Shown one piece after another: positions 23,124-30,818 of a DNA stretch of 64,000 nt; position 1 is the stretch's first letter, and each line of letters starts with the position of its first letter. Source of the DNA: a virus; IMG/VR virus record IMGVR_UViG_3300020416_000001, positions 1 to 64,000 of that record, one strand, 5' to 3'. The translations under genes and the position numbers were made by a program. The notes under the pieces are model-generated. The model was not told the origin of the DNA, ran no database searches, and saw only the letters and a program-made list of their open reading frames with translations.

Positions 23124-23155
23124 ACTTTAACAAAGTACAGTTACAGAGATTGACA

Positions 23156-23584
23156 ATGGCAACAAGTCAAGTTAATGGATGGGCAGATCAGTTGCTCACT
23201 AAATTATCTGAGAAGGCAAAGGCATACCGCCTTGCAACTATTGATAAAAGACTAGCAGAAGGTGTTGGCACAACTGCTGAGATCGCTAGGACATTGCACT
23301 CAGGTGTGAACGTATTGGTCACTAAACGTGAGAAAATAGTAGCGGATGATGCTTCAGTAACGTGGACATTCGCAAAGGCGGATGATGGCGAAGACATCAA
23401 AATTAGTGCTACCGCACCCTCGGATAGGGGCGGACATACAAAAGATTTACTCTGGATTGAGGGTTCTACTGGTAAATGTAAGAAACTCAAAGGAGATCTA
23501 TACAACGTAGATGCTAACAGTCTCGACGATACTTATCGTGAGACATTCTTTGGCAAGGTAACACATTTGGGAACATTCTGGTAA
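23156..23584 (+). CDS. hypothetical protein
   Basis: A 142-aa protein from ATG 23156 (MATSQVNGWADQLL); an alternative TTG two codons upstream is less likely. Helical N-terminus, then a beta region (VTWTFAKADDGEDIKISA). A late-type octamer lies just upstream and a rho-independent terminator follows, so it may be a single-gene late unit. Function unknown. Confidence 0.65.
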   Translation: MATSQVNGWADQLLTKLSEKAKAYRLATIDKRLAEGVGTTAEIARTLHSGVNVLVTKREKIVADDASVTWTFAKADDGEDIKISATAPSDRGGHTKDLLWIEGSTGKCKKLKGDLYNVDANSLDDTYRETFFGKVTHLGTFW

Positions 23585-23589
23585 ACACT

Positions 23590-23647
23590 AGGACAATTAA
23601 ATAACTGTACCACTAGACCCCCACAGGGGTCTTTTTTATGGCATTAT
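23590..23647 (+). promoter_or_regulatory. promoter with degenerate dyad box, upstream of candidate ncRNA
   Basis: AGGACA, ten bases, TGTACC (23590-23611) is followed at exactly 30 bases by CATTAT (23642-23647), a weak -10. The bases after it (ATAAGAGTAA) match those after the -10 at 24603. Predicted start is about 23654, the first base of the ncRNA helix. Confidence 0.55.
23615..23637 (+). terminator. rho-independent terminator
   Basis: AGACCCC pairs with GGGGTCT around CACA and runs into six T's. It ends transcription of the gene at 23156. Confidence 0.85.
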
Positions 23648-23653
23648 ATAAGA

Positions 23654-23817
23654 GTAAGGGAAACAACTTAGACGGTTGCTATACCCGAAACTCTCATTTG
23701 TGGGGTTATCCTACTAAGATATGAGTCAGTAGGGGTACAGGTGTAAGCGATTCCTATAGCGTAAATTTGGACTCTTGAGTGAAACTCATTACAGTAGTCC
23801 CGCGTTGTTCCCCTTAC
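23654..23817 (+). ncRNA. candidate structured non-coding RNA, about 164 nt
   Basis: No convincing protein is encoded here, yet the two ends pair over 14 positions with one mismatch: 23654-23667 (GTAAGGGAAACAAC) and 23804-23817 (GTTGTTCCCCTTAC). Within it, GCTATA (23678-23683) pairs with TATAGC (23755-23760), CCTACT (23710) with AGTAGG (23728), and GGACT (23769) with AGTCC (23795) enclosing a TGAGT-GAA-ACTCA hairpin. The first paired base is where transcription should begin from the promoter at 23642. Possible roles include a 6S-like RNA or an unnamed phage RNA. No Rfam family is recognised. Confidence 0.55.
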
Positions 23818-23827
23818 AACACCCACT

Positions 23828-23885
23828 ATGACAGTTGATAAACTGCACACCTATCTCACACAGGAAGCAGAATCAACGTTATAGT
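23828..23885 (+). promoter_or_regulatory. dyad-box promoter
   Basis: ATGACA-GTT, spacer, AAC-TGCACA (23828-23849), then 30 bases, then TATAGT (23880-23885). Predicted start near 23892, the first base of the leader hairpin. Confidence 0.6.
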
Positions 23886-23891
23886 ATAAAT

Positions 23892-23944
23892 GTTGAGAGC
23901 GTTGCTCACATTCACAATCGCTGAGGGATACCCTCGCTCTCAAC
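23892..23944 (+). other. 5' leader stem-loop with perfect 10-bp arms
   Basis: GTTGAGAGCG (23892-23901) and CGCTCTCAAC (23935-23944) are perfect inverted repeats around a 33-base loop at the very start of the predicted transcript. The first coding ATG (23971) is 26 bases downstream. It could protect the 5' end from decay or control translation. Confidence 0.6.
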
Positions 23945-23970
23945 ACATAATTCACACACAACTTAATACG

Positions 23971-24132
23971 ATGACCAGAGTACAAATCACATTACTAGTT
24001 GAAGTTGACACCGAGGACGAAGTTAATTGCCCTGACGGTGACCCTATCACACAAAACGTAGTAGTCAACGCAGTTGACAATGATTTCTTTCTTGACCCTG
24101 TAACTGTATTAGATGCGAGGATAGTAGATTGA
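23971..24132 (+). CDS. small acidic hypothetical protein
   Basis: A 53-aa protein starting at ATG 23971 (MTRVQITLLVEVDTEDEV). A longer in-frame start at 23890 would run through the leader hairpin and is not favoured. Beta-strand pattern, acidic. It overlaps the next gene by four bases. It heads the early small-gene region. Confidence 0.6.
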   Translation: MTRVQITLLVEVDTEDEVNCPDGDPITQNVVVNAVDNDFFLDPVTVLDARIVD

Positions 24133-27171: not shown

Positions 27172-27333
27172 ATGAGATATTCAATCCACGTCCCAACCGC
27201 ACCATTTGAAAATACAAGTTTTGTAAACTTGGATGACTGTTGGAGTCTTTGCTATGATCTAGCACAAGAATATGGATATGCTGAGGTTAGATATGGAAAT
27301 TGTCTAATGGGTTCTTATTGTGACAGAGATTAA
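27172..27333 (+). CDS. 53-aa hypothetical protein
   Basis: Frame from ATG 27172 starting six bases after the previous stop: beta pattern MRYSIHVPTAPF, Cys-containing helix DDCWSLCYDLAQEYG, tail YGNCLMGSYCDRD with two further Cys. Its last codons lie inside the next dyad box. Function unknown. Confidence 0.55.
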   Translation: MRYSIHVPTAPFENTSFVNLDDCWSLCYDLAQEYGYAEVRYGNCLMGSYCDRD

Positions 27334-30815: not shown

Positions 30816-30818
30816 ACA

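Follow-up and report, generated by a model that had tools for sequence, protein, structure and literature searches.

The RNA described here, which we call R1, occupies positions 23654–23817 on the + strand of the window (the whole stretch of 64,000 nucleotides that was analyzed), running from the predicted start of transcription to the last base of a closing helix. Its covariance model matches positions 23656–23816 of the window with 91.5 bits (E 1.5e-23); the window copy is one of the 34 sequences behind this model, and the model E-values are rough. Upstream lies an ORF of 144 amino acids (23150–23584, +) with no Pfam match above the cut-off and no PHROG; relatives of the protein were found only in close sister phages. 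The terminator that an earlier note on this DNA had placed at 23615 is present just upstream of R1 (23615–23632; listed as 23615–23639, +, for the intrinsic terminator of the upstream gene or genes) and is conserved in the sister contigs L004–L007. It is followed by a −10 box, CATTAT (23642–23647, +; TATTAT in homologues), which was assigned from homology and from a family-wide position peak. The helix begins at 23654, six bases after this box, in agreement with the earlier proposal that the RNA starts at a promoter. Behind R1, the next promoter (23830–23890, +) contains the dyad GACAGTTGATAAACTGCAC and TATAGTATAAATG, and a separate hairpin element (23891–23945, +; fold −21.0 kcal/mol) stands at its start. 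The next gene begins at an internal ATG (23971–24132, +) of the ORF listed at 23890–24132. The hairpin behind the GACAGTTGATAAACTGCAC/TATAGTATAAATG dyad is kept in the sisters, including sister phages without R1, and the window and the sisters share 84–85% identity over about 240 bp around this element. The genome from which the window derives is distant from cultured Kyanoviridae.

The ends of the segment pair over 14 positions, GTAAGGG-A-AACAAC (23654–23667) with GTTGTT-C-CCCTTAC (23804–23817), giving 13 pairs and one A/C mismatch, as had been noticed before. No credible gene crosses the segment, the sole ORF being one of 60 amino acids on the minus strand. A protein-coding reading was also rejected for the family, in which the variable domain (insert) of the homologues takes lengths of every residue class modulo 3 and most frames contain stops. 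The idea of a replication origin was likewise dropped, as the GC skew has no switch at 23.6 kb.

The family was recognized through a blastn search with the surrounding region, which returned a 45-bp match of 91% identity inside the segment to the single-cell marine virus AG-345-E15. The flanks of this match differ in sequence from those of the window and again form a perfectly closing helix, GTGAGG/CCTCAC. A 17-mer common to the window and AG-345-E15, CAGGTGTAAGCGATTCC, was used as the search word in IMG/VR and matched at least 120 stretches. Among the matches listed are 98 distinct copies; their helices vary in sequence, whereas their joining regions are constant. Among named phages, R1 was found in the Prochlorococcus phages P-SSM2 and P-SSM5, where it lies unannotated between annotated genes (at about 56.7 kb in P-SSM2), and in several AG-345 single-cell viruses; the covariance model found none in 12 other cyanophage isolates, including S-PM2. 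The 15 exact 17-mer matches in GTDB genomes were considered to be chance, because the second core motif was present in none of them and the model scores were E 0.011 or weaker. Rfam gave no match for the whole window (gathering level), the segment (E up to 10) or two homologues (E up to 5), and neither Rfam 15 nor the open-access literature searched contained an earlier account of this RNA. R1 is a conserved structured RNA family of T4-like marine cyanophages, and the suggestion of a phage RNA of new type is borne out by a covarying fold without an Rfam match.

The fold of the window copy alone is suggestive: its energy of −50.1 kcal/mol (z −2.4; 4 of 200 shuffles were as good) is moderately better than that of shuffled sequences, so that comparison was needed, and it is the comparative evidence that settles the structure. 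We used two alignments. A1 consists of 34 natural copies aligned by MAFFT with no structure given, and its covariation score was 0.439, against 0.171 ± 0.010 for shuffled and ≤ 0.133 for slid controls. In A1, 26 of the 33 pairs have two-sided changes, and RNAalifold alone recovers the same helices. A2 consists of 100 copies aligned by the R1 covariance model and, unlike A1, leans towards that model; its score was 0.494 against 0.165 for shuffled alignments, 94.6% of its cells are paired, and two-sided changes again occur in 26 of 33 pairs. When column covariation was calculated without a given structure, the top ten column pairs were all helix pairs, and no extra pseudoknot pairs beyond the helices were seen by this method. 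The absence of compensatory changes among homologues had been set beforehand as the result that would overturn the proposal; the changes found are numerous and strongly uphold it. The G-U wobbles, such as the UG found at the base of P2 in 96 of the 100 copies, fix the RNA strand as +. We regard it as virtually certain that R1 is a real RNA family.

In the fold, the closing helix P1 (23654–23667 with 23804–23817, both strands on +) opens into two arms, P2/P3 and P4/P5, which meet at a conserved junction. Where three inner helices had been anticipated, the comparison gives P2, P3, P4 and P5. P1 is variable in sequence across the family and has a type-specific internal loop, and all seven of its modelled pairs show two-sided changes in the 100 copies. 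P2 is formed by UGCUAUA (23677–23683, +) and UAUAGCG (23755–23761, +). It has a probability of only 0.0025 in the single-sequence ensemble and is missed by the minimum-free-energy fold, which makes energy alone misleading, yet it is the best-supported helix of the family, with 99% of the cells of its seven pairs paired and two-sided changes in six of the seven (100 copies). The P3 arm (23684–23734, +) consists of a CCC/GGG helix, GAA (23687–23689) opposite AGUA (23728–23731), and a swappable hairpin insert, whose length ranges from 17 to > 150 nt across copies; GAA opposite AGUA is frequent and, by inspection, resembles a sarcin–ricin-type internal loop. P4 (23769–23773 with 23796–23800, within 23769–23800, +) is capped by the P5 hairpin (23776–23788), which is closed as N-GUGAAAC-N and appears T-loop-like by inspection. 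The conserved core, which includes GUGUAAGCGAUUCC, comprises two joining regions seen as conserved columns. The first, GUACAGGUGUAAGCGAUUCC (23735–23754, +), has the family form GUxCAGGUGUAAGCGAUUCC and is nearly invariant over its 20 bases; the 17-mer search word lies within it, so that exact invariance there is partly due to selection. The second joint, UAAAUUUGG, is invariant although it lies outside the search word (UAAAUUU at 23762–23768, +, then GG). Altogether, the family keeps about 30 unpaired bases of the core nearly unchanged.

We analyzed the genomic setting of R1 across the family. R1 has the same direction as the upstream gene at 83 of 91 loci, and its neighbors belong to dozens of different, unrelated gene families; downstream genes named by inspection include a uvsW helicase, HNH nuclease-like, orotate phosphoribosyltransferase-like and SprT-like genes, and unknowns. 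No tRNA gene was found near R1 at any of 93 loci. The position of −10-like hexamers peaks 6–7 nt before P1, and terminators within 160 nt of R1 were found upstream at 11 of 84 loci and downstream at 1 of 84. This peak, and terminators that occur before R1 and hardly behind it, indicate that R1 very probably forms the start of a transcript that runs on downstream, as judged from sequence. The next strong terminator on the + strand of the window lies at 30818, and none occurs for 7 kb behind R1. The expectation of an RNA of about 164 nt holds for a structured RNA started at a promoter, but there is no terminator behind it, and a discrete 164-nt species would need processing. At 16 loci, which represent about 12 unrelated ORFs and include short ones, an ATG lies 17–26 nt behind the 3′ end of P1, and Shine–Dalgarno use behind R1 (5 of 29, against 144 of 603) was not informative. 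The label "early" for the transcript is given by analogy, from gene content and promoters. Elsewhere in the window, the leaders of early promoters are short and plain. At 27333, 29686 and 30380, early promoters carry a dyad resembling TGTGACAG...CTGTCACA, placed about 35 nt ahead of TATAAT, which is a possible phage regulator box.

The number of copies per genome was also determined. Exactly one R1 was found in the 172-kb genome of the window (171,756 bases; E up to 0.001), in each of 20 long IMG/VR contigs, which had been selected for holding one, and in six phage records, namely P-SSM2 and P-SSM5 (both 252 kb) and four AG-345 records; the one-per-genome pattern is firm for a few near-complete genomes, most records being partial and all having been selected for at least one copy. 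A candidate second copy in the window genome, at 143757, was rejected (17.6 bits, second core motif missing). The only contig seen with two copies was L024, a short one, at 1214–1340(−) and 2123–2268(−), 0.8 kb apart with an ORF of 147 amino acids between them. Typically, ocean viruses of cyanobacteria carry one R1 copy each. R1 copies end at contig edges in L012, L021, L027, L031, L048, L052, L101, L102, L116, L119 and L121, as if assemblies of mixed populations break where the flanks differ around a shared RNA.

In the sisters L004–L007, the upstream gene, terminator, promoter and downstream element are as in the window, and the site of R1 is occupied by an unrelated hairpin. This alternative head (GGCAAG) has the form GGCAAGGGT-stem-TCGAACCTCT, in which the closing helix covaries (score 0.731, against 0.198), and stands directly behind a −10 box (L004:3004–3061, L006:3004–3068 and L298:1504–1561(−)); in L004 and L006 its site is orthologous to that of R1 in the window. 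The window and the sisters thus differ by replacement of the head, not by simple insertion. The alternative head occurs exactly once per record in 13 records and in none of 12 R1 records, and R1 was found in none of 14 records with the alternative head or with only the module D2 described below, nor in the sisters G017–G020. The leader RNA appears to be modular, with at least two heads, R1 and the GGCAAG hairpin, that can take each other's place, which had not been anticipated. It is probable that each phage has one head RNA and that the heads are interchangeable.

The module D2 (GTTTCAG..GGCGATAGGAAAC) occurs in L192, L210, L222 and > 100 other IMG/VR stretches, once per record in seven of seven records, and is placed behind R1, the alternative head or simple hairpins. 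It reads as an H-type pseudoknot, e.g., CAAGTC-CCTTT-GGTAGTTTC-A-GACTTG-GAGGCGATAG-GAAACTACC. Its matched part ends 7–9 nt before a tRNA gene at L192:8817–8843, L210:813–839(−) and L222:8568–8594(−), and in L189, L192 and L078 only the tRNA itself matches Rfam. The region L210:729–2887 is a phage tRNA cluster with nine tRNA genes and a doubtful tmRNA call, in which D2 is flanked by tRNA-Ser and tRNA-Pro. Other hairpin modules are found repeatedly ahead of the core, inside P3 and behind the core, and are nested in one another. In P-SSM2, an extra module precedes R1. All module copies are in the RNA orientation, and about 90% lie within 700 nt of the core.

R1 was then compared with known RNAs. 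6S RNA acts by binding the holoenzyme of the housekeeping RNA polymerase and serves as the template for pRNA. The earlier note had offered a 6S-like role, and R1 is indeed similar to 6S RNA in length and in its closed ends. However, there was no Rfam 6S match (up to E 10 with the window copy and up to E 5 with two homologues), and where 6S RNA is one long duplex opened by a central bubble, P1 of R1 leads to two arms around a conserved junction core. The 6S reading is not supported. The wcaG, manA and PhotoRC-II RNAs (RF01761, RF01745 and RF01717) are structured RNAs of T4-like cyanophages and marine samples, mostly putative 5′ leaders (PMC2864571), and resemble R1 in being cyanophage structured RNAs in a putative 5′ leader position. 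Their Rfam models gave no match in the window or in the family copies tested, and whereas they precede genes of defined pathways (PMC2864571), R1 precedes unrelated genes, is present once per genome and belongs to a set of interchangeable heads. GOLLD and ROOL are ornate phage RNAs of unknown function, often near tRNA islands (PMC12286853); R1 is smaller, lacks an Rfam match and has a tRNA gene nearby at 0 of 93 loci. CfrI, an RNA of cyanophage S-PM2 that is antisense to psbA (PMC9602691), is also a cyanophage noncoding RNA, but R1 is not antisense to a gene and is absent from S-PM2.

As a whole, the observations are best explained by one early head RNA per phage that is released and acts in trans, a reading to which we give a probability of roughly 45%. 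A single copy, arbitrary neighbors and mutual exclusion lead us to infer an RNA that acts in trans and is required a single time in each genome; taken separately, action in trans rather than purely in cis is, in our estimate, an even choice. Each such phage would carry one head RNA, which would be transcribed early, from a promoter of its own, at the front of an mRNA or a tRNA transcript and be stabilized by its paired 5′ end. As no terminator stands behind R1, the RNA must be cut out or act while attached. Endonuclease cleavage in the short linker behind the head RNA would release it, and before tRNA genes RNase P would free the leader. The invariant core (GUxCAGGUGUAAGCGAUUCC and UAAAUUUGG, held by P2, P3 and P4) would bind one host or phage macromolecule, and the variable P3 inserts and the extra modules would be accessory.

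The strongest rival is a cis-acting 5′ leader that stays on the mRNA, with its 5′ end hidden in a helix, and either shields the message from RNase E or sets the translation of the next gene. It owes this rank to the induction of RNase E in infected Prochlorococcus, which over-expresses the enzyme during cyanophage infection; antisense RNA has been put forward as a means of protecting phage transcripts (PMC9692554). The position of R1 at transcript starts, the lack of a terminator behind it and the ATG 17–26 nt behind P1 in several unrelated ORFs would all be expected of such a leader. A general shield, however, should recur at many promoters, whereas one copy per genome is observed and the other early promoters of the window have plain leaders; it has no need of about 30 invariant unpaired bases, and D2 heads tRNA transcripts as well. 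We hold this leader reading to be rather unlikely. An undescribed class of riboswitch or self-cleaving ribozyme would account for a conserved unpaired core in a multi-helix junction and for the T-loop-like GUGAAAC hairpin and sarcin–ricin-like GAA/AGUA, both recognized by inspection. The downstream genes (uvsW, HNH-like and others, named by inspection) come from no common pathway, however, and no Rfam riboswitch or ribozyme matched, and this is the least probable of the readings weighed here.

Two further explanations are very improbable, to the same degree. One is processive antitermination of the put type, in which the nascent RNA would bind RNA polymerase so that terminators or pauses are passed. 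Such an RNA would sit at the same place, the start of early phage transcripts ("early" by analogy), and would be indifferent to what lies downstream, tRNA genes included, but the window has no strong + strand terminator to be passed before 30818, and put has two sites per phage where R1 has one. No relation in sequence or structure has emerged between R1 (about 120–330 nt, with a multi-helix junction, an invariant core and a single copy) and put. HK022 put is likewise encoded by a phage and placed at the head of early transcripts, and it acts in cis, as RNA (PMC9378689). The other explanation is a selfish mobile element (MITE or REP-like) that folds by chance, which would fit the spread over dozens of gene neighborhoods, the recurring modules nested in one another and the many copies at contig ends. 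Against this, there is one copy per genome or record, the modules are in the RNA orientation only and mostly close to the core (about 90% at 700 nt or less), R1 is placed at promoter starts with strong helix covariation, and it excludes, and is excluded by, another head.

These results show that an RNA without an Rfam 15 match is common in T4-like phages of open-ocean samples. At minimum, the annotation of marine phages gains a new family, together with the second hairpin head and the pseudoknot module. Since R1 is present in the model isolate P-SSM2, its function is directly testable. Its single copy, the mutual exclusion of heads and the shuffling of modules are unusual among known phage RNAs, and together they suggest an RNA gene under diversifying selection. 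A more speculative form of the trans-acting reading, which we think distinctly unlikely, is that each phage has exactly one early trans-acting "identity" RNA, with heads interchangeable like alleles and with shuffled modules. Its diversity would reflect an arms race, for example with a host defence that targets RNA or, in the form of exclusion or compatibility types, with co-infecting phages.
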